A DNA stretch of 64,000 bases from Aquitalea aquatilis (GTDB lineage Bacteria > Pseudomonadota > Gammaproteobacteria > Burkholderiales > Chromobacteriaceae). Under the pieces are notes generated by a model. It did not search any database and was not told where the DNA came from. It worked only from the letters and a program-made list of their open reading frames with translations. This document shows positions 13,801 to 56,577 of the stretch, piece after piece; the first letter of the stretch is position 1; each line of letters opens with the position of its first letter. Made by a program: the position numbers and the translations under genes. The stretch is from positions 3,162,001 to 3,226,000 of the forward strand of contig NZ_CP039731.1 in assembly GCF_005155025.1 (NCBI RefSeq), written 5' to 3'.

Positions 13801-14926
13801 TGGTAAAGATGAAGGCTACCCGTTTGGTGGCAGCCGGGGTGTGCTTCAGTCGCGCCAGCCGGGCGGCAATGCCGGCCAGGCGGCGCATGCGGTCGGGCAG
13901 CGGCTGGTAGTCGCTGCTGGCCGGGTCTTCCGGCTTGAACGACACCGGCACGCCGATGATGCGGCCATCGAACTCCGGCAGCGCCACATTCATGGCGGTG
14001 TCCAGCGGGTTCAGCCCACGCTCGGATTGCTCCCACTGCGCCTGGGTCATGCTGCTGGTGATGGCCTGCAGCACCGGGATATCCAGCTGCTCGAAGGCCT
14101 CTACTGCCCAGCTGGCGCTGGTGGCACCTTCGGCATTCACTTCGCCCATGGCAAAGGACGTCGTGTTGATCAGCACGCAGGGCTGGCCGGCGCGGGTGTC
14201 GCGCAGCAGTTGCAGCGCTGCCGGCATGCCGGCTTCGTCCTGGCTGCGCAGCGACGAGGTAAACAGCGGCAGCGCGTTGATCTGGCGCTCGGCCAGCATG
14301 TCTACCAGCATGTCGATGAAGCGGGTGTTGCCGCTCAGCCAGTGGGCGCGGTAGAAGCTGATGGCTACCGTGGGCCAGCCGGGTTGGCGAATTTCACACC
14401 AATCATCCAGCCAGTCATCCATGCTGCAAGCGTCGGACAGCTCCGGGTGATACAGGCCGTGCTCCGGCAAGGCGGCCGCAGGCAGATAGCCGTGGCCGGT
14501 CATCAGCAGACGGTCGGACAGGTAGCGCAGCAATTGCGCCATATTGCTGCTGCCACCGGCTTGCAGATAGGCATTGGCCTCTTGCTGGATGGATGGCGGC
14601 ACGGTGCACAGCGCGGCCAGCTCCGGGTCCGGCTCGCCGGTGCCGCTGAGGATGATCAGCGCCTGCTTGCGTGCCAGCGCCTGCTGGTGCAGCGCGTCGA
14701 AAGCGGGGATGGACTGTACCCGGCCCAATACCCGCAGCAGCAGGATGCGGGCGCTGGCAAGTGGGCCGTCCAGCAGGGCCTGCATCTGGCTGGCGTCGGT
14801 AATGTGTTGCAGGGCGAAGCTGGCGACGCTGTCGAAGTCTGGCGGCAGCGGGGCGCGGCTCAGGGCGGTGAGGTCGGTGCCGGCGTGGCTGAGCAGCACG
14901 ATGCCGCCCTGGTTGTGCTGCGTCAT
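10811..14926 (-). CDS. cobN: Cobaltochelatase large subunit CobN with a histidine-rich insert
   Basis: A 1371-residue CobN, the tetrapyrrole-binding subunit that inserts cobalt into hydrogenobyrinic acid a,c-diamide with the adjacent ChlID fusion supplying ATP hydrolysis. Typical segments include 'VHVGKHGTLEWLPGKGVG', 'GAFPFILNDPGEG'-like 'FILNDPGEGSQAKRRAHSV' and, near the C terminus, 'YQYHGGM'-type 'DDYLQYHGGMIATIRSLTG'. Residues about 656-755 (DNA 12662-12958) form an insert with two clusters of 14-15 histidines separated by a low-complexity linker. It is probably a cobalt-binding store. The gene overlaps the ferredoxin upstream and chlID downstream. Confidence 0.96.
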   Translation of the reverse strand: MTQHNQGGIVLLSHAGTDLTALSRAPLPPDFDSVASFALQHITDASQMQALLDGPLASARILLLRVLGRVQSIPAFDALHQQALARKQALIILSGTGEPDPELAALCTVPPSIQQEANAYLQAGGSSNMAQLLRYLSDRLLMTGHGYLPAAALPEHGLYHPELSDACSMDDWLDDWCEIRQPGWPTVAISFYRAHWLSGNTRFIDMLVDMLAERQINALPLFTSSLRSQDEAGMPAALQLLRDTRAGQPCVLINTTSFAMGEVNAEGATSASWAVEAFEQLDIPVLQAITSSMTQAQWEQSERGLNPLDTAMNVALPEFDGRIIGVPVSFKPEDPASSDYQPLPDRMRRLAGIAARLARLKHTPAATKRVAFIFTNSNSKASQVGNAVGLDSAASLYALLQAMQANGYQIGPLPDSSDALMHQLIDRGCYDTDYLSAEQLRQAIARVPLAQYQQWFAELPAPLQTRMLERWGAAPGTAYVDGDQLVFSGMELGNAFVALQPPRGYGMDPDAIYHTPDLPPTHHYYALYCWLRDEWQADAIVHVGKHGTLEWLPGKGVGVSQHCFPDALLGDMPMFYPFILNDPGEGSQAKRRAHSVIIDHLTPPMTTADTYGPLAQLTQLVDEYYQVEMLDPSKLPLLQQQIWDLIKEARLDSDLAAMLGHDHQHDEHEHGHGHHQHAAHDHHHHAHPPKAAQPGYRLSQPAKAASASTVKAGSMQFRPAAKSTGHSHGAHDHHHHGHSHDHDEHGHDHAHEWDATLNADGVPLTLAKMEGVDVAHLIEDIDGYLCELGAAQIRDGLHILGRMPQGEALVDMLCALTRLPNLAVPSLPASVAATLGVDWDGLQEDKGRRLENLPVPLEMSSPQLLHTRSDAIDHINQLARLLVALLLAPDAASIPAAIATVLPQAGNSTALQQVLGFIRDELLPNLARTHEEIGNLLRGLAGGYVPAGPSGAPTRGMAHILPTGRNFYSVDPRGLPSQAAWRVGSELANEMLARHRKETGQYPESVSISVWGTSAMRTHGDDIAEILALLGVRPRWQAESRRVAGIEVIPLAELGRPRIDVTVRISGFFRDAFPQLIALVDDAVHAVAALDEDPADNYLRKHYLDDIRQGLLQALPDKQAEPALLRVFGAKPGSYGAGILPLINEQNWQSDADFATAYINWGGYAYGRNVQGADARAALRHRLSGVEVALHNQDNREHDIFDSDDYLQYHGGMIATIRSLTGRQPRAFFGDSHNPDQPQVRGLKEEVLRVFRSRVANPKWIASIQQHGYKGGLELTATVDYLFGYDATAHVVDDWVYEELAARYALDPAMQQFFADSNPWALNAISERLLEAAQRQLWQAPKPETLAALQQLHLNTEAMLEARGEHPQGRP

Positions 14927-15252
14927 GGCGTGCTTTCACTGCTGACATCGCCCAAACCCAGGCGATGGAAAATCAGGGCTTCCACTGGCACGTCGCCCTG
15001 CAGATGCTCGCTGACAATGCGCTGCACCGCGTTGGCATCCACCTTGCGATACCACACGCCTTCCGGGTAGACCACCATGATGGGGCCTTCCTTGCATACG
15101 GCGAAACAATGACTGCGGGTGCGTTTCACCTTGAGGCCGTCACAGGCGTCGATGGCCTGGCCCAGCTGTTTGAACATGGCTTCGGCCTGCTGGCCATTTT
15201 CGGTGCAGCGCGGGCCGGTGCACATCAGCACATGGCGATAGTGCTGTCTCAT
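14923..15252 (-). CDS. Thioredoxin-like [2Fe-2S] ferredoxin of the cobalamin operon
   Basis: A 109-residue (2Fe-2S) ferredoxin-domain protein. The cluster-binding pattern 'MCTGPRCTENG' (C-X4-C) and the later 'SHCFAVCKEGPIMVVYPEG' (C-X3-C) are clear. It is the first gene after the riboswitch and overlaps cobN by ATGA. Ferredoxins of this type recur in cobalamin gene clusters and may supply electrons for cobalt reduction; that role is inferred. An alternative ATG nine bases upstream (15261) is possible; both have weak ribosome binding sites. Confidence 0.88.
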   Translation of the reverse strand: MRQHYRHVLMCTGPRCTENGQQAEAMFKQLGQAIDACDGLKVKRTRSHCFAVCKEGPIMVVYPEGVWYRKVDANAVQRIVSEHLQGDVPVEALIFHRLGLGDVSSESTP

Positions 15253-44549: not shown

Positions 44550-46787
44550 TTATTTGCGCAGCAAACGCAGGCCGTTGCCCACTACCAGCAGGCTGGCGCC
44601 CACATCGGCGAACACCGCCATCCACATGCTGCCCATGCCCAGCAGGGTCAGCAGCAGGAAAACAGCCTTGATGCCCAGTGCCAGTGCGATGTTTTGCACC
44701 AGAATGGCGTGGGTGGCGCGTGACAGGCGCACAAAAGCCGGGATCTTGGCCAGATCGTCGTCCATCAGGGCCACGTCGGCGGTTTCGATGGCGGTGTCCG
44801 AGCCCATGGCCCCCATGGCGAAGCCGATGTCGGCGCGGGCCAGTGCCGGGGCATCGTTGATGCCATCCCCCACCATGCCGACCAGGCCCTGGCCAGACAG
44901 GGCGGCTATCGCGTCGGCCTTGTCCTGCGGCAGCTGATTGCCGCGCGCCACGTCGATGCCGGCCTGGCTGGCGATGGCGCTGGCCGTGGCCTGATTGTCG
45001 CCACTGAGCATGATGGTTTTCACACCCAGCTGGTGCAGTTCGGCAATGGCAGCGGGGCTGCCGGGCTTGATGGTATCGGCCACTGCGAACATAGCCAGTG
45101 CTCCGCTATCGTCCAGCAGGGCTACCACGCTCTTGCCCTGCGCTTCCAGAGCGGCCAGTTGTGTGGCCAATTCTGGTGGGCAGTGGCCGCGCTCCTGCAG
45201 CAGTCGCTGGTTGCCCAATGCGTAGTTTTGGCCGGCGATATTGCCCTGTATGCCCCGACCGGGCAGGGCGAGGAAATCCTCGACCGGAAGCAGCGGCAGG
45301 GCATCTGCTTGTGCTGCACGCGATAACGCTTGTGATACCGGGTGGTCGGAACGGCCGGCCAAGCTGGCGGCCAGTTGCCGGTAGTCGGCGGGGCTGGCTG
45401 TACCCAGCGCGACAAAGTCGGTCTGTTCCGGCTTGCCGTGGGTGATGGTGCCGGTCTTGTCCAGAGCCAGCCAGCGCAAGTGTCGGCCCTGTTCCAGCCA
45501 CACACCTCCCTTGATCAGGATGCCGCGTCGTGCGGCGGCGGCCAGGCCGCTGACGATGGTGACCGGGGTGGAGATGACTAGTGCGCAAGGGCAGGCGATG
45601 ACCAGCAGTACCAGCGCCTTGTATAGCCAGTCATGCCAGCTGCCAGCGCCCAGCAGCGGCGGCAGCAGCGCAACAGCCAGCGCCAGCAGAAAGACCGCGG
45701 GGGTGTAGTAGCGGGCAAAGCTGTCGACAAAGCGCTGGGTGGGCGCGCGTGCGCCCTGTGCCTGCTCCACTGCATGAATGATGCGCGCCAGCATGGTGTC
45801 GTTGGCGGCGGCACTGACCCGGTATTCAAACGAGCCGCTGGCATTCAGCGTACCGGCGTACACACTGTCGCCCACGTTTTTTTCCACCGGCAGGCTTTCG
45901 CCGGTCATGGCCGACTGATTGACGCTGGAGCTGCCGGCAAGCAGCACGCCATCCAGGGCGATGCGCTCGCCGGGAGCCACCCGCACGCTGCTGCCGATGG
46001 CGATGTCGGCCAGGTCCATGCTCTGCCAGCTGCCATCCACCTGCTGCACCATGGCCTGGGGCGGTGTCAGCTGCAATAGGCTGCCGATGGCATTGCGGGC
46101 GCGCTCCAGCGAACGGGCCTCGATGCGCTCGGCCAGGGTAAACAGCACCATCACCATGGCGGCTTCCGGCCATTGTCCCAGCAACAGCGCGCCGGTGACA
46201 GCGATGCTCATCAGCGCATTGATGTTGAGGGTGCGGTTGCGCAGGGCTATCCAGCCTTTTTGGTAGGTACCCAGGCCACAAATCAGAATGGCGGCCAGCG
46301 CCAGCAAGGCAGCCAGCCAGCCAGGTAGCGCCAGCCAGCTGCACACTTCGGCCGCCGCCGCCGCCACGGCAGCCAGTGCCAGTGGCCACCAGGCGGCAGG
46401 CTGTGCGGGCCGGGCAGGTGGCGCGTCGCCGGTTTGCGGTTCGAAACCAAGGCTGCGCAGGGCCGCCAGGATGTCCGGCAGCACGCTTGGCTGATGGCTG
46501 ACCGTCAACACCCGCTGCATCAGGTTGAATTCCATGTCCTGCACGCCGGGCATCGTGCCCAGCTTGTTGCGGATCAGTGCTTCTTCGGTGGGGCAGTCCA
46601 TTTGCAGGATGCGGATAGGGGTGCGCAACTGGGTGCCGCTGGCCTGTGCCGCTGGCAGCGCCGCCAGGGTGCTTGTGGTGGCGTTGCTGCAGCCACAGCT
46701 GTGCTGATGGGCATGCTGCTCGGCATGGTTATGGCCATGCTCGTGCTCATGGTTTCCATGCGAACGAGGGGGCTGTTGATGTTTCAT
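44550..46787 (-). CDS. cadA: Heavy-metal P-type ATPase (Cd/Zn/Pb exporter)
   Basis: A 745-residue P1B-type ATPase. A His-rich N terminus (residues 9-32) ends in 'HSCGC', followed by an HMA domain whose metal motif reads 'MDCPTEE'. Membrane helix 6 has 'VIACPCALVIS' (CPC), the phosphorylation site is 'LDKTGTITHGKPE' and the hinge 'GDGINDAPALARADIG'. The CPC motif with a CadR regulator next door indicates export of Zn, Cd and Pb. GGAGACC supports the ATG at 46787. Its promoter is the MerR-type site listed below. Confidence 0.94.
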   Translation of the reverse strand: MKHQQPPRSHGNHEHEHGHNHAEQHAHQHSCGCSNATTSTLAALPAAQASGTQLRTPIRILQMDCPTEEALIRNKLGTMPGVQDMEFNLMQRVLTVSHQPSVLPDILAALRSLGFEPQTGDAPPARPAQPAAWWPLALAAVAAAAAEVCSWLALPGWLAALLALAAILICGLGTYQKGWIALRNRTLNINALMSIAVTGALLLGQWPEAAMVMVLFTLAERIEARSLERARNAIGSLLQLTPPQAMVQQVDGSWQSMDLADIAIGSSVRVAPGERIALDGVLLAGSSSVNQSAMTGESLPVEKNVGDSVYAGTLNASGSFEYRVSAAANDTMLARIIHAVEQAQGARAPTQRFVDSFARYYTPAVFLLALAVALLPPLLGAGSWHDWLYKALVLLVIACPCALVISTPVTIVSGLAAAARRGILIKGGVWLEQGRHLRWLALDKTGTITHGKPEQTDFVALGTASPADYRQLAASLAGRSDHPVSQALSRAAQADALPLLPVEDFLALPGRGIQGNIAGQNYALGNQRLLQERGHCPPELATQLAALEAQGKSVVALLDDSGALAMFAVADTIKPGSPAAIAELHQLGVKTIMLSGDNQATASAIASQAGIDVARGNQLPQDKADAIAALSGQGLVGMVGDGINDAPALARADIGFAMGAMGSDTAIETADVALMDDDLAKIPAFVRLSRATHAILVQNIALALGIKAVFLLLTLLGMGSMWMAVFADVGASLLVVGNGLRLLRK

Positions 46788-46815
46788 GCTGGTCTCCACT
46801 GCGACATTGGCTTAC

Positions 46816-46846
46816 AGTAAACACCTTGTAGCAACTTCAAGGTCAA
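46816..46846 (-). promoter_or_regulatory. MerR-type promoter and CadR operator of the exporter gene
   Basis: Read on the minus strand: -35 TTGACC (46841-46846), a 19-base spacer and -10 TTTACT (46816-46821). The spacer contains the dyad CCTTG-N9-CAAGG (46824-46842). A 19-base spacer is the hallmark of MerR-family promoters, which the activator untwists. The MITE begins a few bases upstream of the -35. Confidence 0.88.
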
Positions 46847-46852
46847 GCCTAG

Positions 46853-47115
46853 GGCCTGTTAACACTATTTTTTTCACGGCGGCGGATGTTGAGGGGATGC
46901 AATGCGCGAAAAACTGCGCGCCGCAGGGCATTCCCTGCCAGCGCAGTTTGACAAGGCAGTGTGCCGCTCAACATCCGCCCCGCAGGGCAGGCCCGACCAG
47001 CTTGCCACTGCTGCGTTGTCGGATTTGCGCTTGGAGCGACCAAGCGCTGCACCCTCCGCCTTGCATTGACAAGCTTTCAGGGCCTGCGCCGCAGAAAACA
47101 TAGTATTAACAGGCC
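46853..47115. mobile_element. MITE-like element, copy 2 (long form), inserted between the cadA promoter and cadR
   Basis: About 263 bases with terminal inverted repeats GGCCTGTTAACACTAT and ATAGTATTAACAGGCC, flanked on both sides by CTAG, consistent with a 4-base YTAR target duplication as made by IS5-type transposases. It matches copy 1 at 19914 except for about 105 extra bases near the right end. Subterminal GGCGGATGTTGAG and CTCAACATCCGCC and inner stems AAACTGCGC/GCGCAGTTT and GCAGGG/CCCTGC make it highly foldable. No transposase is encoded. Confidence 0.85.
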
Positions 47116-47133
47116 CTAGCCTGGGAGGGTGGG

Positions 47134-47565
47134 ATGAAAATCGGCGATCTGGCCCGTCACGCGGGCTGCACCACGGAAACGGTGCGTTTTTACGAGAAGG
47201 AAGGGCTACTGCCGACGGCTGACCGTGCCGCCAACAATTACCGCAGTTATGGCTCGCGCCATCTGGAGCGGCTGTGCTTTGTGCGCAATTGCCGGGCTCT
47301 GGACATGACTCATGAGGAAATCCACCAGCTGCTGGCGCTGATGGAAACGGCCGGGGGCGACTGTGGTGGTGTAAACGAATTGCTGGACGCGCATATCCAG
47401 CATGTGGACCAGCGTATTGCCGAGCTGCTGCAGCTCAAGCAACAACTGGATGCCCTGCGCCAGCGCTGTCAGCAGCAGCAGGGTGTGGACGCCTGCGGCA
47501 TTCTGCAGGGGCTGGCGGAAATGGAAACCAGCGCCCGGCCGGAACGCCACACCCATCTGGGCTGA
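47134..47565 (+). CDS. cadR: Cd(II)/Pb(II)-responsive MerR-family regulator CadR
   Basis: A 143-residue MerR regulator. The HTH has 'MKIGDLARHAGCTTETVRFY' and 'EKEGLLPTADRAANNYRSYG'. Metal-binding Cys occur at 77, 112 and 121, as in CadR/PbrR, and the tail 'RPERHTHLG' gives His ligands. It activates the divergent cadA promoter when Cd, Zn or Pb binds. The MITE separates it from the operator by nearly 300 bases, so cadR can no longer share the compact divergent promoter usual for this pair. Confidence 0.94.
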   Translation: MKIGDLARHAGCTTETVRFYEKEGLLPTADRAANNYRSYGSRHLERLCFVRNCRALDMTHEEIHQLLALMETAGGDCGGVNELLDAHIQHVDQRIAELLQLKQQLDALRQRCQQQQGVDACGILQGLAEMETSARPERHTHLG

Positions 47566-49354: not shown

Positions 49355-49371
49355 TGTCGCAAGTCTGAGAC
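49355..49371 (+). promoter_or_regulatory. Candidate activator site 1 upstream of the fap-like operon
   Basis: TGTCGCA-N5-GAGAC, about 210 bases upstream of the sigma-54 promoter. The same 12 specified bases recur at 49483, in the same orientation. Enhancer-binding proteins usually bind at such distances. Assignment to the nearby regulator is an inference. Confidence 0.5.
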
Positions 49372-49482
49372 GCTTTGCCCGCCCTCAACCCGCACGGCAG
49401 GCCCGTGGCTGTTGGCAGGGCCACCTTTCCCGGTGACATCGCGCAGGCCAGGCGTGGCGCTTACCCGGCAGCCCCCGTTTTC

Positions 49483-49499
49483 TGTCGCAGCGGCGAGAC
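49483..49499 (+). promoter_or_regulatory. Candidate activator site 2 upstream of the fap-like operon
   Basis: Second copy of TGTCGCA-N5-GAGAC, 128 bases after site 1 and about 80 bases before the -24 element. Here the motif is also part of an inverted repeat, CTGTC-N10-GACAG (49482-49501). Confidence 0.5.
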
Positions 49500-49564
49500 A
49501 GTTGTGCGATCCGCCGCCAGCGCCCGCGCGCGAATTCCCTTATGGCATGCGGGTATGGGTGGCC

Positions 49565-49580
49565 TGGCACGCTTTCTGCA
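49565..49580 (+). promoter_or_regulatory. Sigma-54 promoter of the fap-like operon
   Basis: TGGCAC-N5-CTGCA matches the -24/-12 consensus TGGCAC-N5-TTGCW with the invariant GG and GC ten bases apart. Transcription would start near 49591, about 25 bases before the ATG at 49617. This rules out the alternative ATG at 49581, which falls next to the -12 element. A sigma-54 activator gene lies in the same locus. Confidence 0.88.
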
Positions 49581-49616
49581 ATGAATAGGACATTCCCCAG
49601 CCCTCAGGTGGTCAGC

Positions 49617-50024
49617 ATGGACAGCACATTATTCCGCCGCGTTTTTCCGGCTTTGCTGGCGGGCAGCCTGCTGGCTTCGGCTGCGGCACAGGGCGAGGGC
49701 GAGATGGTGATCGGTCGTGAAGTACCGGCCCGCCCGGCCATCCGTCACGGCGATCCCAGCCCGGATGTCAGCCGGGTTTCGACTTCACCGTCCAGTAGCG
49801 TACCCACCGTCACACAACAGCTGGCCGACCCCTTGCTGGCAGCCACGCATGCGGTGATGGCCGACCCGGCCTTGCGTTCGCCAGTGGTCGTGCTGGATGG
49901 GCAGTCTGCCTGGTCTGGTATGGCAGCTGGCGGTGCTAATGGCAAGTCGCCAGCCGGCATGGCGGGCGCGGCACTGTCCGGTGTGGGAATGGGGCATCTG
50001 CTGCAATCGGCCCTGCACCCATGA
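49617..50024 (+). CDS. Small exported protein, first gene of the amyloid operon (FapA position)
   Basis: A 135-residue secreted protein: signal peptide 'RVFPALLAGSLLASAAAQ', then a low-complexity, Ser/Pro/Ala/Gly-rich mature chain with 'PTVTQQLADPLLAATHAVMA' and no Cys. It has the size and position of FapA, a periplasmic chaperone-like protein of Pseudomonas Fap operons, but sequence similarity is not obvious by eye. AGGTGG supports the ATG at 49617. It is 29 bases from the next gene. Confidence 0.7.
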   Translation: MDSTLFRRVFPALLAGSLLASAAAQGEGEMVIGREVPARPAIRHGDPSPDVSRVSTSPSSSVPTVTQQLADPLLAATHAVMADPALRSPVVVLDGQSAWSGMAAGGANGKSPAGMAGAALSGVGMGHLLQSALHP

Positions 50025-50053
50025 GCGGGCTAACGGTGGCAAGGAGACAAGTC

Positions 50054-50647
50054 ATGCACATCACGCAGATGTTGTGGTTGGCAAGCGGGCTGTGTGCAGC
50101 ACTGGCCCAGGCCGACCAGCTGGCACTGATAAGCGATAGCGGCCAGGCGGCACAGGGCGTGCTGGCGGTGAATCAGGTAGCCGGCACGGCCAATCAGCAA
50201 GGCAATCTGCAGGCGCTGGCCTTCGCTGCCGGGGTGGCACAGGCGCGCATCAGCTTGCCGCAGCAGCAGGGAAGCACCCAGGCGGTGGCGGAGCAAAACC
50301 TGCGCGCCAGCATTGTGGGTGCGTCGTTTGCCGGAAGCCAGGGATTGCTGGCCGTAAACCAGACGGCCGGCAATGCCAACCAGTCACTCAATGCCTTCAG
50401 CCTGGCGCAGGCCGCCCGGCCACAGGCCAGTGTCCGTGACCTGCCGGCGGCGGTGCAGGATGCCGTGCTGGCCGGCACGACCGCAGCGGCAGCACCCGTC
50501 GCCGGGGCTGTCGCCAATACCGGACAGATAACCGAATTATCCGCAGCAGCTTTCCAGGGAAGCCGGGGGCTGGTGCAGCTTAACCAGATTGCTGGCAGCC
50601 ATAACCTGGCTGTCAATGTCGTGGCCGTGCAATGGGCCAACCCGTGA
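50054..50647 (+). CDS. fapB: FapB-like minor amyloid subunit
   Basis: A 197-residue exported protein (signal peptide cleaved near ALAQA, residue 20). Three imperfect repeats at about 35-58, 97-119 and 172-193 share G-(V/L)-(L/V)-x-(V/L)-NQ-x-AG-x-x-N, e.g. 'GVLAVNQVAGTANQQGN' and 'GLLAVNQTAGNANQSLN'. Such Gln/Asn repeats between Ala/Ser-rich linkers are typical of functional-amyloid nucleator subunits. AAGGAGAC precedes the ATG. Size and place match FapB. Confidence 0.8.
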   Translation: MHITQMLWLASGLCAALAQADQLALISDSGQAAQGVLAVNQVAGTANQQGNLQALAFAAGVAQARISLPQQQGSTQAVAEQNLRASIVGASFAGSQGLLAVNQTAGNANQSLNAFSLAQAARPQASVRDLPAAVQDAVLAGTTAAAAPVAGAVANTGQITELSAAAFQGSRGLVQLNQIAGSHNLAVNVVAVQWANP

Positions 50648-50711
50648 GCAGTGCCGGTTCTGGCCAGCCGTGGCGGAGCCGGTATTCAAGCAAATCGCTA
50701 GGAGAACAATC

Positions 50712-51521
50712 ATGACCGCAATGCTGCAGAAAAAAGTGCTTTTCGTCGCTCTTGTTGGTGTGTTCGGCGTAGCGCATGCCGTGGAACCGCCGGCTCCGCC
50801 GTCCACCACGACGACCAAGATCAGCAATAATCTGTCCAATACCTATAGCAATACCGACGTTAACGTCACCGGCACCGCCTATCTGGAAGGCATCGCCGTG
50901 TACGAGGTGTTTGATCCCAAGGCCGATGCCCTGGCCAGCGCCCGCGTGAACGACGTGCAGAAAAACCTGGGCAACAAGCTGAATGTGACCGATCCGGCCA
51001 ATGCGGGGGTAACTGGCAGCGTGAGCAATATCCAGGGTAATGCCGGCGTCAACAATGCTGCTGGTTTCTTCAATCAGCAGGCTAACAATGTGGCGATCAG
51101 TTCGGCTTCCGGCAAGCACAGCGGTGCTGCGGCCTCCACCTCCTTCGAGCAGCTGAACGACGGCAATAACTACACCTTTGCCGAGCCGATGCGCGGTACC
51201 TCCAATGACATGAATGCCAGCCTCAGCAACTCGGTGAACAACATCCAGGGTAATGCCGGGGTGAACAACGCCGCCGGTGCTGGCAACCAGCAGAAGAATG
51301 ATGTCGCCCTGGCCTCGGCCAGTGCTGCCGTGCTGGCTACCGCCTCGGCCGGTGGCATGCAGGTGAATCAGGGTACTGCGGTGACCACCTTCTTCCCGCT
51401 CAATGCCACCGCCAGCATTTCCGGTTCGGTGAATGGCATCAGCGGCAATGTCGGCGTCAACAATGCTGCCGGCCTGTCCAATCAGCAGGTTAACAGCCTG
51501 TCGGTTGCGGCCACCCACTAA
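50712..51521 (+). CDS. fapC: FapC-like major amyloid subunit
   Basis: A 269-residue exported protein, probably the fibril subunit. After a signal peptide (cleaved near AHA, residue 23) come an Asn/Thr-rich segment and three strongly conserved repeats at about 103-130, 174-201 and 239-266 with the pattern S-V-x-x-I-x-GN-x-GVNNAAG-x-x-NQQ-x-N. Linkers are about 43 and 37 residues. The mature chain has no Cys, so the CxxC motif reported for Pseudomonas FapC is absent. CTAGGAG precedes the ATG. A hairpin region follows, probably tuning expression of the next genes. Confidence 0.88.
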   Translation: MTAMLQKKVLFVALVGVFGVAHAVEPPAPPSTTTTKISNNLSNTYSNTDVNVTGTAYLEGIAVYEVFDPKADALASARVNDVQKNLGNKLNVTDPANAGVTGSVSNIQGNAGVNNAAGFFNQQANNVAISSASGKHSGAAASTSFEQLNDGNNYTFAEPMRGTSNDMNASLSNSVNNIQGNAGVNNAAGAGNQQKNDVALASASAAVLATASAGGMQVNQGTAVTTFFPLNATASISGSVNGISGNVGVNNAAGLSNQQVNSLSVAATH

Positions 51522-51528
51522 GAAAGTG

Positions 51529-51634
51529 TTCACGATTTAGCGAACGCGGGGTCACCCGCATCTCGCAGATCGTGAGCAGGTTCTAAGCCAGGAGACGCCG
51601 GCAGCGCAGTCGTCAGGCCACGCTGCCGGCTTTT
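51529..51634 (+). promoter_or_regulatory. Hairpins between fapC and fapD, one between ribosome binding site and start
   Basis: Hairpin 1 pairs TTCACGAT (51529-51536) with ATCGTGAG (51569-51576) and holds an inner GCGGG/CCCGC stem. Hairpin 2 is a perfect 10-bp stem, GCCGGCAGCG (51597-51606) with CGCTGCCGGC (51621-51630), followed by TTTT. AGGAG (51590-51594) lies just before hairpin 2 and 43 bases from the fapD ATG; folding would bring it to an effective 9 bases. Hairpin 2 could also act as a partial terminator. Confidence 0.65.
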
Positions 51635-51637
51635 GCC

Positions 51638-52342
51638 ATGAAAACCACTATCCGCTTGCTATTGTCCATCCTGCTGGGCCTGGCCTGTCCGGGTGGCGAA
51701 CAGTTTGCCCAGGCCGCAGACCTGGCCGTGCCGGCCTATACCGGCGAGGGCAATGTCTACAAGCAGGTACACAGCCTGCGGGAAATGCGTTTTGCCCATG
51801 TGGTGGAGCAACATACCGATTTCAGCTGCGGGGCGGCGGCGCTGGCCACCTTGCTGCGTTATGGCTTTGGCCGCGATATCGACGAGCAGCAGGTCATCGC
51901 CGGCATGCTGGCCGGAGCCAATGCCGATGTGGTGCGCCAGCAGGGTTTTTCCATGCTGGACATGAAGCACTATGTAAATACGCTGGGCCTGCGGGCCAGC
52001 GGTTTTGTCAGCGGCCCGGAGCGTTTGCCCGCGCTGCGCATTCCGGCGCTGATCATGCTGGACATCAATGGCTACAAACACTTTGTCATCCTGAAAATGG
52101 CGACCCGCGACACGGTTTATGTAGCGGACCCGGCGCTTGGCAACCGCGCGGTGGCTATGGCGGAGTTTGCACGGCAGTGGAATGGCGTGTTGCTGGCGGT
52201 GGCCGGCCCCGGCTACCAGCCACAAGGGCCGTTGCGGCAACCGCCCAGCCTGTTGTCGGCGCGGCAGTTGATGAATGGCATGCAGCCGGTGCAGCCGGCC
52301 GATCTGGTGGAGTACGGCTTTATCTACAGTGATTTCTTATAG
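51638..52342 (+). CDS. fapD: C39-family peptidase of the amyloid locus (FapD-like)
   Basis: A 234-residue exported protein with a signal peptide (about 1-27) and a papain-like peptidase C39 domain. Catalytic Cys64 lies in 'HTDFSCGAAALATLLRYGFG', His148 in 'GYKHFVILKM' and Asp164 in 'YVADPALG'. FapD of Pseudomonas is a periplasmic C39-like protein needed for fibril secretion. No ribosome binding site lies immediately upstream; see the hairpin entry. Confidence 0.88.
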   Translation: MKTTIRLLLSILLGLACPGGEQFAQAADLAVPAYTGEGNVYKQVHSLREMRFAHVVEQHTDFSCGAAALATLLRYGFGRDIDEQQVIAGMLAGANADVVRQQGFSMLDMKHYVNTLGLRASGFVSGPERLPALRIPALIMLDINGYKHFVILKMATRDTVYVADPALGNRAVAMAEFARQWNGVLLAVAGPGYQPQGPLRQPPSLLSARQLMNGMQPVQPADLVEYGFIYSDFL

Positions 52343-52389
52343 TTGCGGCCTGTGGGCACAGCCCCGCCGGCGACGACCGGGAGCATAGC

Positions 52390-53067
52390 GTGCGTATCTT
52401 ATCCAGGGCAGTGCCGGTACTGCTGGCATTGACTGCCAGCGTGCCGGCGCAAGCCATGCTGGCGTATGTAGACGACGGCGTGCTGGACAGCTTGCGTGGT
52501 CGTTATATCGATGCCGGGCAGATCGTGCGCTTCGGCGTGCAGATGCTGACTACCTGGCAGAACCAGGCTGGGGTGGTGCAAGGGGCCGGGCTGCAGTTGA
52601 CGGCCCAGACCGGCGCGGTGCCGGTGATCAGCCGTTACACCCTGAATGGCGATGGCACGGCAACGACGTCGGCGGCGACAGCGCCGACTAGCGGGCTGGC
52701 ATCGGTACAAGGCGTGGTGCAGCTTAATCAGCAAGCCGGCAATGGCAACCGTTCCAGCAACAGCACCAGCATCGACATCCGGCGTGACGGCACGGCCAGC
52801 CTGCAGATGCCGGCCGGCTGGCAGGCGGGTAGTGGCAGTAGCTCACTGGGTAGCGGCCAACTGGCGGTGAATATCGATCTGGGGAGTACGGGGCGCATTG
52901 GTCAGATGCTGGGCCAGGGGCAGTTGCTGCAGTTTTCCAGCATTAACGGCAGCGGCATCAGTACCGACAATAGCCTGCGTATCCAGCTGGTATTGCAGCC
53001 GCAGGCCGCCGGTTTCGGCTTCAGCATTCCCAACCGCTTGATGCTGTCCGGCACCGGCGTGCGCTGA
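52390..53067 (+). CDS. Exported protein with amyloid-like motif (FapE position)
   Basis: A 225-residue exported protein starting at a GTG preceded by GGGAG. After the signal peptide (cleaved near AQA, residue 22) a segment 'DDGVLDSLRGRYIDAG' is followed by one copy of the Gln/Asn motif 'GVVQLNQQAGNGNRSSNS' at about 108-125, related to those in FapB. It fits FapE in size (about 225) and order, a minor extracellular component. It is the last gene of the plus-strand operon and converges with the regulator gene. Confidence 0.75.
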   Translation: MRILSRAVPVLLALTASVPAQAMLAYVDDGVLDSLRGRYIDAGQIVRFGVQMLTTWQNQAGVVQGAGLQLTAQTGAVPVISRYTLNGDGTATTSAATAPTSGLASVQGVVQLNQQAGNGNRSSNSTSIDIRRDGTASLQMPAGWQAGSGSSSLGSGQLAVNIDLGSTGRIGQMLGQGQLLQFSSINGSGISTDNSLRIQLVLQPQAAGFGFSIPNRLMLSGTGVR

Positions 53068-53099
53068 GTCATCTTCATCTGCGCTACGACGCCGCCCGC

Positions 53100-54434
53100 T
53101 TATTCGACGGCGCTCATCTCGTATTTCTTCAGCAGGCGGTACAGCGTGGCGCGGGAAATGCCCAGCGTGCGTGCCGCCTGACTGCTGTTGTGATTGTTCA
53201 GTTGCAGCGCAGTGGCCAGCGCTTCCCGTTCCGCCCTTTCCCGGACTGCCTCCAGCCCATTGTCTAGTGGTGCCAGCATGCTGCTGCCCAGGCCCATGTC
53301 TTGCGGGCGGATGACCCGGCCGCTGGCCATGGCCAGACCCTGGCTGATGCGGTTGGACATTTCACGGATATTGCCCGGCCAGTCGTGTTGCAGCATGGCT
53401 GCCAGCGCCTCGTAAGACAGCCGCTTGAACGGAATGCCGTGGCGACTGGCGCTCTGCTGCAATAGGTGTTGTGCCAGCAGCGGAATGTCCGAGCGCCGTT
53501 CGCGCAGCGCGGGCAGTTGCAGCTGGCAGACACACAGGCGGTAGTACAGATCCTCGCGGAAGCGCCCCTTGCCGATGGCAGCCGGCAGGTCGACATGAGT
53601 GGCCGACAGCACGCGGGTATCGATGCTACGGCTGCGGTTGTCACCAAGCCGGTCTATGGTGCCTTCCTGCAGAAAACGCAGCAGGTTGACCTGTGCCTCT
53701 ATTGCCATGTCACCGATTTCATCCAGAAACAGCGTGCCATTCTGCGCCGCTTCGATGCGCCCGATGCGGCAACTGGATGCGCCGGTAAACGCCCCGCGTT
53801 CGTGGCCGAACAGCTCGGACTGCACCAGGTTGACGGGCAGGCCACCGCAGTTGACCGCCTGGAAGGGGCCGTCGGCGCGGTCGGAGTACTGGTGGATCAG
53901 TTGCGCCACCAGCTCCTTGCCGGTACCGGACTCACCGGTAATCATCACCGTGACATTCACCCGGGCCAGCCGGCGGATTTCCTGACGCAGGCGGCGGATG
54001 CTAGGGTGCTCGCCCACCAGTTGTTGCGGCTCCTGCTCGGTCTGTTCGTGCTGGCTGCGGCGGCGTAACAGGGTTTTGCCGTGCAGCCTGCCCAGGGTGA
54101 CGGCCAGCCGTTCATTTTCAACGGGCAGGCAGTGGTAGTCATAGCAGCTGTCGTTGATAAAGGCGCGCACGGCCGCTTGTTCCAGTTGGGCGCGCTCGGT
54201 CAGCAGCAGCCACTCCAGATCAAGCTCGCTGGCCAGTTGCTGCAGCGCCGTTCTCTTGCGCAGCAGCTTGCTGTCCAGTAATAGCAGCCCGGCACTGCAG
54301 CGGGGGCTGCGTTGTGCTTTCCACTGCTGCGGATCGTGGATATGGATGATGTGCCAATGCTGCTGGCGCAGCGCGTGCAGTACTGGCAGCAGGGCATCCG
54401 ACCCCACTGCCAGCAGCGTCTTGTTTGCTTGCAT
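53100..54434 (-). CDS. Sigma-54-dependent enhancer-binding regulator of the amyloid locus
   Basis: A 444-residue activator. The N-terminal ~130 residues look like a degenerate receiver ('LLAVGSDALLPVLHALRQ', 'AGLLLLDSKLL') without a clear phosphorylation pocket, similar to VpsR-type c-di-GMP-linked regulators (inference). The AAA+ domain has Walker A 'ITGESGTGKELVAQLI' near 166, the sigma-54 loop 'ERGAFTGASS' near 215, and 'GTLFLDEIGDM'. The Fis-type HTH at the end is 'SQAARTLGISRATLYRLLKK'. GGAG precedes the ATG, 11 bases after fapF. It probably activates the sigma-54 promoter at 49565. Confidence 0.9.
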   Translation of the reverse strand: MQANKTLLAVGSDALLPVLHALRQQHWHIIHIHDPQQWKAQRSPRCSAGLLLLDSKLLRKRTALQQLASELDLEWLLLTERAQLEQAAVRAFINDSCYDYHCLPVENERLAVTLGRLHGKTLLRRRSQHEQTEQEPQQLVGEHPSIRRLRQEIRRLARVNVTVMITGESGTGKELVAQLIHQYSDRADGPFQAVNCGGLPVNLVQSELFGHERGAFTGASSCRIGRIEAAQNGTLFLDEIGDMAIEAQVNLLRFLQEGTIDRLGDNRSRSIDTRVLSATHVDLPAAIGKGRFREDLYYRLCVCQLQLPALRERRSDIPLLAQHLLQQSASRHGIPFKRLSYEALAAMLQHDWPGNIREMSNRISQGLAMASGRVIRPQDMGLGSSMLAPLDNGLEAVRERAEREALATALQLNNHNSSQAARTLGISRATLYRLLKKYEMSAVE

Positions 54435-54445
54435 GACCGACTCCG

Positions 54446-55708
54446 TTAAAAACGGTAGGGAAACTTCACCGAAAATGCGTAATTGGGGCTGTCCGGCGTC
54501 ATGCCCAGCGACAGGTTGGGAATGATGGAGAGCCGTTTGCTGAAGGCATAGGTCAGGCCCAGGTTCAGGTTGGCCGCATTGGCGCTGCTGCCGATCACGT
54601 CGGTCCAGTTGCTGCCCTGTTGGCGCATGCGCGCCTGTTGCACCATCTGCTGCGAATAGGACAGGCCCAGGCTGAGCTTGTCGTTGAGGGCAAAGGCGAT
54701 GCCGGCTCCCCAGCTCCAGCTGTCACCCAGGCGCACATCGCCCGGCTGGGTAACGCCAGCGGTGGGGCTGATGTCACTGAAGTGGCCATCCAGATAATGG
54801 GTGTAGCTGAGGCTGGCAAACAGCACGGCCGGGTCTACGGTCTTGACGAAGGACAGGCTGGTACTCAGGCCCCAGACGCCGTTGCCAGTGGGCAGGCGGT
54901 CGGGGATGGACAGATTGTTGTTGCTAGCTGACTGCACCAGCTTGATGCCGTAGGGATTGCGCCCGGTGGGGGCCTTGGCGCGCACACTCCACACGATGTC
55001 CGGCCAGTCGGCATTTTCTTCCACCAGCTTGTAACCCACGCCAAAGCTGACATCGCCCAGCGTCGGTCCTTGCCGCACCGAGCCTTGCGACACGCTGTTG
55101 GCGGCACCGCCGGCACCACCGGAAAAGTAGGTGGCATCACGCGCCACGAAGGGGATGTCCACGTCCAGCTGCCAGCGCGGGCTGGGTGAGTAGCGCGTAG
55201 TCAGGCCCAGGGTGACGCTGTCGCTGACCACCTTGTCCAGATTGATATTGCCCAGAAAAATCGAATCCAGTGCCAGAAACCCGTTCAGCACCAGCTCGCG
55301 GGTGTCGTAGTGGGTGTAGGTAAAGCTGGGTTCGATGGAGAATTTGCCGGCAGCAAAGCCGCTGGCTTCCTGATAGATGTCTTCCACGCTCTTGGGCACT
55401 TCGCTGACGACTGGCAACGCCGGTCCATTGCCTGCGGCCACCGCTCCACTACCTGCAGTTGGGGACTCACTGCTGGCCGGGTTGTTGGCGGCACTGGCGG
55501 CATTGCTACCGTGTTGCAGGCTGGCCAGCTGTCTTTCCAGCTGGCGGATACGGCTTTCCTGTTGCTGATTGGTCTGGGCCAGGGCGCTTATTTGCTGTTG
55601 CAGGCTTTCCAGGCTGATTTCAGCCTGTGCCTGCAATGGAAAAGCCAGGGCAAGCGCGGTTAACAGCAGTGGTTTGACGCCGGAATAGGTAGGGCGCGGC
55701 AGCGGCAT
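54446..55708 (-). CDS. fapF: FapF-like outer membrane amyloid export porin
   Basis: A 420-residue outer membrane protein. After a signal peptide (cleaved near AQA) comes a heptad coiled coil at about 29-65 ('LESLQQQISALAQTNQQQ'), a Ser/Ala/Pro linker, the helix 'VPKSVEDIYQEASGF' and a beta-barrel of alternating strands ending in the C-terminal 'VKFPYRF', as expected for BAM-inserted porins. FapF uses coiled-coil and plug helices to gate fibril export. AAGGAA selects the ATG at 55708 over 55714. It lies on the opposite strand to fapABCDE and shares an operon with the regulator. Confidence 0.87.
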   Translation of the reverse strand: MPLPRPTYSGVKPLLLTALALAFPLQAQAEISLESLQQQISALAQTNQQQESRIRQLERQLASLQHGSNAASAANNPASSESPTAGSGAVAAGNGPALPVVSEVPKSVEDIYQEASGFAAGKFSIEPSFTYTHYDTRELVLNGFLALDSIFLGNINLDKVVSDSVTLGLTTRYSPSPRWQLDVDIPFVARDATYFSGGAGGAANSVSQGSVRQGPTLGDVSFGVGYKLVEENADWPDIVWSVRAKAPTGRNPYGIKLVQSASNNNLSIPDRLPTGNGVWGLSTSLSFVKTVDPAVLFASLSYTHYLDGHFSDISPTAGVTQPGDVRLGDSWSWGAGIAFALNDKLSLGLSYSQQMVQQARMRQQGSNWTDVIGSSANAANLNLGLTYAFSKRLSIIPNLSLGMTPDSPNYAFSVKFPYRF

Positions 55709-56046
55709 GATCATTTCCTTGTAGCACAGGTGCGGGCTGGGCAAGGATCAATACCGGCCAAGACGGGGCAGGCATGCCGGTGCTTCCCGATCACCTGATG
55801 GGGTGAGTGATGCATTGCATGGCCCGACTTGATGTTATTTATTTAAACTGTAGTTTGTGTAACTTATTTATATTGTATATTAGTCGAGCACATGGCCAAG
55901 ACAAGTTGAATTTGACTGTGCTGCGTGAAAGTGCGAAATAATCAGCGGCAACATGGCGGGAACAATGCAATGGCACAGCTGCTGTGCATGTCAGCGCCAG
56001 TTGGCGCGCATTCATGATGAACAAGCTTGATGACAGGGAGTAAACG
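55709..56046. other. AT-rich divergent intergenic region upstream of fapF
   Basis: No gene seen. The segment around 55825-55885 is strikingly AT-rich ('tgttatttatttaaactg'), suitable for promoters of both fapF (minus) and the pseudo-phosphatase (plus). A weak GG-N10-GC match exists on the minus strand near 55811-55826, and TGGCACAGCTGCTGTGC near 55972 has only a -24 match; neither is convincing. Confidence 0.5.
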
Positions 56047-56577
56047 ATGAGGAAGCTGATTGCATTAACAGGCATGCTCTTGTTGCTGGCTAGCGGGCTG
56101 GTCGCGGCTGCCGAGCCATTCAAGCTGGCTTTTGTCGATACCGGCAATACCGGGCGCAGTCTGACGGCCGAGGCACTGGCCCGGCAGCGTATCGAGCAGC
56201 AGAAGCTGCCCATCGCGGTGATTTCGCGAGCGGTCGACATGGACCCCTACGACAGCAGCCCCGAGGCGAATGCGGCCAGCCTGCTGCTGCAGCGTGGCAT
56301 CGACGTGTCGGCCCACCATGCCGCACAGCTGAATGCCAATGATGTACGCCACTCCGACCTGATTCTTACCATGACCGCCAAACACAAGGCCAAGGTGCTG
56401 GAGCTGTTTCCCGAAGCCAAAGGCAAGACTTTTACCTTGTCCGAATACGCCAGCGGTAATACGGATGATGTCGCCGATGCCTGGGGCAAGCCGCTGGCGG
56501 TATACCAGGAGATGCTGCGCCAGGTAGAAGGCTATCTGCCGGCTGTGCTGGACAAGGCACAACATAAAAAGCCGTAA
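56047..56577 (+). CDS. Exported low-molecular-weight tyrosine phosphatase-like protein lacking the catalytic cysteine
   Basis: A 176-residue protein with a signal peptide (cleaved near AAA, about residue 22) and an LMW-PTP/arsenate-reductase fold. The P-loop that normally reads V-C-x-GN-x-C-RS is 'FVDTGNTGRSLTAEALARQ': the nucleophilic Cys is Asp31 and the second Cys is Gly36, while Arg37, Ser38 and the later Asp144 region remain. It cannot act as a normal cysteine phosphatase and is probably a binding or regulatory protein. GGGAG precedes the ATG. Confidence 0.85.
   Translation: MRKLIALTGMLLLLASGLVAAAEPFKLAFVDTGNTGRSLTAEALARQRIEQQKLPIAVISRAVDMDPYDSSPEANAASLLLQRGIDVSAHHAAQLNANDVRHSDLILTMTAKHKAKVLELFPEAKGKTFTLSEYASGNTDDVADAWGKPLAVYQEMLRQVEGYLPAVLDKAQHKKP

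Follow-up and report, generated by a model that had tools for sequence, protein, structure and literature searches.

A complete Fap functional-amyloid locus in Aquitalea aquatilis with a candidate RpoN promoter, conserved dyads and a linked, probable VpsR-domain activator

Known Fap systems and the genes of the Aquitalea locus

In Pseudomonas fluorescens PF07 the genes for the functional amyloid Fap follow the order fapABCDEF, an RpoN −24/−12 promoter at fapA has been mapped by rapid amplification of 5′ cDNA ends (5′-RACE), loss of brfA lowers the transcription of fapA and fapC, and the expression pattern of fapF differs from that of fapA–E (PMC9207406; this and the other papers named by accession are cited from excerpts of their text). 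BrfA is described as an enhancer-binding protein that senses cyclic di-GMP (c-di-GMP), and BrfA-type factors as widespread in Pseudomonas (PMC13101488, citing Guo 2024); the fap operon is also downregulated in an rpoN mutant (PMC8202526). A survey by Dueholm (2013) found that in 4 of 16 genera, one of them Chromobacterium, fapF is detached from the main operon, and predicted a −35/−10 promoter in front of the solitary fapF of Chromobacterium (PMC3792158). Here we describe a Fap locus from Aquitalea aquatilis, in a stretch of 64,000 nucleotides (hereafter the window; NZ_CP039731.1, positions 3,162,001 to 3,226,000), together with its candidate promoters, its linked regulator and its counterparts in related genomes.

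The locus consists of seven intact genes (49617–55708 of the window) in a 4.36 Mb genome assembled as one contig, with fapA–E on the plus strand facing the regulator gene and fapF on the minus strand. The original prediction, made by eye from gene order, size and motifs, had called this a complete fapABCDEF set, and profile searches with hidden Markov models bear it out: for all six proteins the top NCBIfam match is their own Fap model, with E values from 2.6e-06 (FapA) to 7.4e-155 (FapF). FapA (49617–50024, 135 residues, a putative chaperone) matches NF058617 weakly, at 27.9 bits versus a cut-off of 110. The two repeat proteins, FapB (50054–50647, 197 residues, minor fibril subunit) and FapC (50712–51521, 269 residues, major amyloid subunit), match NF058557 (E 7.8e-29) and NF058558 (E 2.2e-32), in both cases under the curated cut-off. 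The NQ-x-AG/GVNNAAG repeats were seen by eye as three units in each of these proteins and one unit in FapE, and FapC also matches, at the level of sequence, the solved FapC structures 9u4u (E 3.4e-20) and 9nqd (E 3.8e-20). FapD (51638–52342, 234 residues) is a C39 peptidase (NF058616, E 6.3e-80; PF03412) in which the regions of Cys, His and Asp line up with those of structurally solved C39 peptidases, as the original prediction had it, and the FapE-like protein (52390–53067, 225 residues, GTG start) matches NF058559 (E 1.3e-22). The sequence between fapC and fapD (51522–51637, 116 bases) holds a hairpin-like sequence at 51528–51545; hairpins in the region are no commoner than in shuffled sequence.

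FapF (54446–55708, minus strand, 420 residues, outer-membrane amyloid exporter) matches NF058560, and its residues 102–420 align with the solved FapF barrel (PDB IDs 5o65, 5o67 and 5o68; E 8e-112 to 2e-110); the protein is found at 80–97% identity in five named Aquitalea loci. The barrel of the proposed coiled-coil porin is thereby supported and the coiled coil only weakly so, since the AlphaFold model, computed with six close relatives as input, has a helix at 33–71 and strands at 122–417 at a mean predicted local distance difference test score of 43, too low to serve as a test. The locus could alternatively export some other fibre or pilus through FapF/FapD-like proteins, as a Fil-type system rather than Fap; this would fit the additional matches of FapD and FapF to the FilB and FilC models, and relatives hold another family of loci of this sort, in which the repeat proteins are not of Fap type (see below). 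However, the FilB and FilC models score far below the proteins' own models (110.9 versus 267.6 bits for FapD, 49.1 versus 515.9 bits for FapF) and FapA, FapB, FapC and FapE are all present, which makes a Fil-type identity highly improbable. A Pfam scan gave no Fap model match for FapA, FapB, FapC or FapE.

Candidate promoters and the linked regulator

We put at roughly 85% the reading, drawn from sequence, that this is a complete Fap functional-amyloid system of Aquitalea in which fapF and the regulator gene would be transcribed from a sigma-70-type promoter, while the VpsR-domain regulator, acting on two dyads with RpoN, would switch on fapABCDE. The regulator gene (53100–54434, minus strand, 444 residues) starts 11 nt after the fapF stop codon, in the same operon, so the earlier description of fapF as lying on the opposite strand together with a sigma-54 activator was accurate. 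The protein has a VpsR domain (PF20161, 53 bits), an AAA+ sigma-54 interaction domain (PF00158) and a Fis-type helix-turn-helix (PF02954), and carries GAFTGA, Walker A and Walker B patterns; among 12 family regulators the strict patterns missed Walker A in 4 and Walker B in 2, the regulator of the window having both. It is the sole VpsR-domain match in the genome, which encodes one sigma-54.

The candidate −24/−12 promoter, TGGCACGCTTTCTGCA, lies at 49565–49580 on the plus strand, with 38 bp from its GC element to the start of fapA, and scores better than shuffled sequence at p = 0.007 (0.007 to 0.159 over the 8 family sites). An alignment of 8 fapA promoters, 7 from Aquitalea and one (G028) from another genus, keeps TGGCAYGCTTYMTGC. 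The same alignment brings out two dyads of the type TGTCGCA-N4-YGAGAC, putative upstream activating sequences: a distal one at 49355–49372, so that the span noted in the original prediction began in promoter DNA, where there is no gene, and a proximal one at 49483–49500, centred 73 bp before the −24/−12 site. We term them imperfect because they are no perfect palindromes; 3–8 of 10 half-positions pair over 16 family sites, and 5 and 7 in those of the window. The exact motif occurs 8 times in 10 genomes of the genus, always at fap promoters and twice each in 4 genomes (1 match for the reversed control), and three further fap-bearing genomes (G002, G006 and G007) have a diverged form that the exact motif misses and the alignment reveals. 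We also looked by eye at dyad type against the recognition helix of the activator, and claim no relation.

A sigma-70-like promoter for fapF and the regulator, TTGTCT-N16-TAATAT, was located at 55877–55904 on the minus strand, and all 8 of the aligned fapF upstream regions have a counterpart at the corresponding place; by eye, all of these keep a TTG-type −35, a TA-type −10 and a spacer of 16 bp. A general scan for sigma-70 promoters and terminators gave no excess over shuffles (2 promoter sites versus 1.4), and the assignment is therefore argued from this conservation seen by eye. A scan for −24/−12 sites in the 400 bases before fapF and 150 inside it gave nothing above 9 of 12, that one match lying in the coding region. 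The claims of the original prediction that fapA–E are under sigma-54 control and that fapF and the activator are transcribed apart from the fibril genes thus have in silico support, the former from the −24/−12 site, the dyads and the class-wide tests below.

We propose that the fapF–regulator operon would be read from its sigma-70-type promoter, so that exporter and switch protein would be made beforehand. The regulator would then occupy the two dyads upstream of fapA and, once activated, probably by high c-di-GMP as for BrfA, would use ATP to open RpoN polymerase at the −24/−12 site, turning on fapABCDE. FapB, FapC and FapE would exit through FapF, with the help of FapD, and assemble into biofilm amyloid.

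The gene assignments and promoter logic could be right and the activator could still answer to a signal other than c-di-GMP. The N-terminal part of the regulator matches solved VpsR weakly (E 0.0072). Its AAA+ core aligns with FleQ, and at the positions of the FleQ Arg-Asn pair after Walker A, which we take to be c-di-GMP contacts, it has Gln-Leu. On the other hand, VpsR binds c-di-GMP. Sensing of this signal is also reported for BrfA, whose gene is linked to fap in P. fluorescens (PMC13101488). A different signal seems unlikely, though it is the more serious of the doubts considered here, and sensing of c-di-GMP and activation of fapA by the regulator are suggested by analogy with BrfA.

Distribution in the family and class

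The linked activator might instead serve other genes and lie beside fapF by accident, with fapA–E under another enhancer-binding protein or sigma-70. Such an accident is the easier to entertain as the account given above is, for this genome, drawn from sequence; the loose −24/−12 pattern has 22 other exact matches in the genome, and at least five regulator-like matches were found in each of 16 genomes drawn from the class, so that a nearby regulator is not unique evidence. Its distribution argues the other way. FapF matched at E ≤ 0.001 in 15 of 61 family genomes and the regulator at E ≤ 1e-90 in 16 of 61, the extra genome (G008) being 61% complete with a match that begins at base 1 of its contig. 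We compared 19 family loci (18 from relatives and the window's own), 13 of which have fap subunit genes, and in 12 of these 13 fapF adjoins the regulator in one operon facing fap[A]BCDE. The exception, L055 (genome G031), has fap genes without linked regulator or dyads, in a genome that also holds a locus of the second kind described below, with regulator. A similarity search recovered fapA in 8 of the 13 loci, and in L055 and L056 a fapA-like frame upstream of fapB is seen by eye; fapF was read in pieces in G006 and G044, and the regulator end of G006 is out of frame. In L045 (G033) an extra FapC-like open frame follows fapE at 13945–14955.

In the class (Gammaproteobacteria in the GTDB sense), 17 of 369 genomes, the window's own included, gave FapF at E ≤ 1e-70. 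All of the other 16 have a related regulator no more than about 7 kb away from a FapF gene (in G218 a fragment at a contig edge). In 13 of them this linked regulator is the top-scoring match of the genome, and it is placed upstream of fapB, behind fapF or in convergent orientation to fapF. Of 10 linked regulators (out of 16) scanned with Pfam, 7 passed the VpsR cut-off, one fell just under it and two had no VpsR match at E ≤ 0.001. Together with the confinement of the exact dyad to fap promoters in the genus, the near-fixed spacing of dyad and −24/−12 site in seven other loci (below) and the precedent of BrfA (PMC9207406), these linkages make an accidental neighbourhood improbable. The regulator is probably, as far as its sequence tells, a dedicated fap activator of BrfA-like type.

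The dyads were followed outside the family alignment with a weight matrix built from the 8 family loci, scanning 1200 bases upstream of fapB at a score of at least 12. The dyad is present in those 8 by construction, and the tests are therefore the 19 loci outside the matrix and its absence elsewhere in the genus. A dyad was found upstream of fapB in 13 of the 19 (4 of 5 in the family, 9 of 14 class-wide), whereas of 174 control windows taken from these loci only 5 had one (Fisher p = 3.6e-12), and 500 column-permuted matrices reached a maximum of 4 of 19 loci. On the sense strand, 8 of 14 class-wide loci have a −24/−12 site ahead of fapB (p < 0.05); on the antisense strand, 0 of 14 do. The distance from proximal dyad centre to −24/−12 candidate, 73 bp in the window, is 70–74 bp in L045, L049, L056, L090, L091 and L092, and 61 bp in L100.

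Besides the Gln-Leu pair noted above, several observations weigh against our account. All six Fap proteins score under the curated (equivalog) cut-offs of NCBIfam; that for FapF was passed by 0 of 61 family and 0 of 369 class genomes. The likeness of the regulator to BrfA is set by description and gene size, not by sequence, and shared descent accounts for part of the conservation among the 8 family promoters. A promoter scan at ≥ 9 of 12 matches omits 55877–55904 and lists a pair 5 bp away (55899–55872). The matrix threshold of 12 was chosen following a first look at the data, and the 19 loci are not independent, with 5 in the window's family, L090–L092 in one genus and L093–L095 in one family. 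The dyad is missing in 6 of them, five with a linked regulator (L087, L088, L096, L097 and L098), and that of L086, one of the 13 positives, is implausibly placed adjoining fapB and looks spurious. L093, L094, L095 and L099 have their sole dyad 143–161 bp from the nearest downstream −24/−12 candidate, not 70–74 bp, and several such candidates score just 12.5–13.5 of 16. Finally, of two plasmid records examined out of 6 found, that of Aeromonas caviae shows a −24/−12 site at fapB and a regulator linked to fap, and no dyad. G323 has a regulator beside a FapF where a profile search detected no subunit genes, and its other FapF locus has no regulator in the 12 kb of sequence examined. Given the regulator-bearing loci that have no dyad, A. 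caviae likewise, we regard the dyad as widespread, not universal. The other plasmid record, from Vibrio, holds FapF- and FapD-like frames only.

A second kind of locus was seen in six Chromobacteriaceae genomes (L057–L062), with a related regulator (44–47% identity) and a FapF-like porin. Five of the six have a FapD-like C39 peptidase, the sequence of L061 ending too soon; three of these proteins were scanned, the peptidase of L060 and the porins of L057 and L060, with FapD and FapF as best matches and FilB and FilC as next. A small FapE-like protein is seen by eye in these loci (two were scanned, with no family match), and L057, L059 and L062 encode proteins that look secreted and are rich in repeats or of low complexity, but have no Fap repeats; of two that were scanned, one gave no match and the other a weak match to an acid-shock repeat model. 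Dyads scoring 16–21 are followed by −24/−12 sites scoring 14.5–15 in L059, L060 and L062, at 95, about 199 and 95 bp, respectively. L057 has a −24/−12 site (15.5) without dyad, L058 a dyad (14.9) with a weak site, and L061 neither in the stretch examined.

The wider reading is that Fap loci across the class have their own linked sigma-54 activator of VpsR/BrfA type, which in a large part of these loci reads a conserved enhancer consisting of dyads near GTGTCTCA-N4-TGAGACAC, the proximal one about 70–74 bp before the −24 box and the second 77–79 or 128–130 bp further up (the spacings found for paired dyads), and that the same dyad and activator family also govern the second FapF/FapD-type export locus of Chromobacteriaceae with its non-Fap repeat protein. 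We give this an even chance. If true, one regulatory code would serve a wider class of exported fibres.

Outside the locus, a low-molecular-weight phosphotyrosine phosphatase family protein is encoded at 56047–56577, divergent from fapF, with a signal-peptide-like start by eye, and a heavy-metal P-type ATPase and a divergent MerR-like regulator were recognised by eye from translations at 44550–47565.

Comparison with described systems

A literature search for Aquitalea and amyloid found no paper, and one for fapF in Chromobacterium turned up Dueholm (2013) and a paper on P. aeruginosa. Loci of the Chromobacterium type have fapF separated as here; the excerpted text of that survey contains 'sigma' and 'RpoN' 0 times and 'regulator' once, in a reference title, and describes neither a sigma-54 activator nor a −24/−12 site (PMC3792158). 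With the RpoN–BrfA system of PF07 the Aquitalea locus shares a −24/−12 promoter at fapA, an adjacent Fis-type RpoN activator and a fapF set apart from fapA–E; a brfA gene of 1,326 bp implies a BrfA of 441 residues. In PF07, however, brfA is a reverse gene downstream of fapA–F, whereas in the Aquitalea locus the activator gene lies behind fapF, as part of the fapF operon (PMC9207406). The original prediction had implied that separate control of fibril genes and exporter was new; a detached fapF was published in 2013 (PMC3792158) and RpoN–BrfA control has been known since 2022 (PMC9207406, PMC13101488), and such separation is therefore, as far as these excerpts go, not peculiar to this locus.

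Among other regulators, BerB of Burkholderia cenocepacia is likewise an RpoN-dependent enhancer-binding protein with GAFTGA, c-di-GMP-dependent and acting for a biofilm matrix component, but it works via an exopolysaccharide regulator and is reported to have no N-terminal input domain (PMC5552954). The Aquitalea regulator has the VpsR domain in common with VpsR and an alignable AAA+ core with FleQ, both of which differ in that RpoN is not required for matrix genes, in contrast to BerB (PMC5552954).

With this locus, the RpoN–activator wiring known for Fap amyloid in P. fluorescens would reach a distant family, and the activator gains a candidate binding site that is concrete and testable; where present, the dyads could help to find further regulon members, such as the second export locus. 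With the Pseudomonas fapABCDEF operon it shares all six proteins, the three repeats of FapB and FapC, the C39 peptidase FapD and the FapF barrel, and it differs from that operon in having fapF on the opposite strand with a regulator and in scoring under the NCBIfam cut-offs. The present analysis adds an enhancer layout that some members of the class have in common, and a further export locus of Fap-like kind in related genomes, some copies of which carry these dyads too. Taken alone, the Aquitalea genes form an ordinary, well-preserved and complete Fap system, and both the system and its type of control are known from Pseudomonas.

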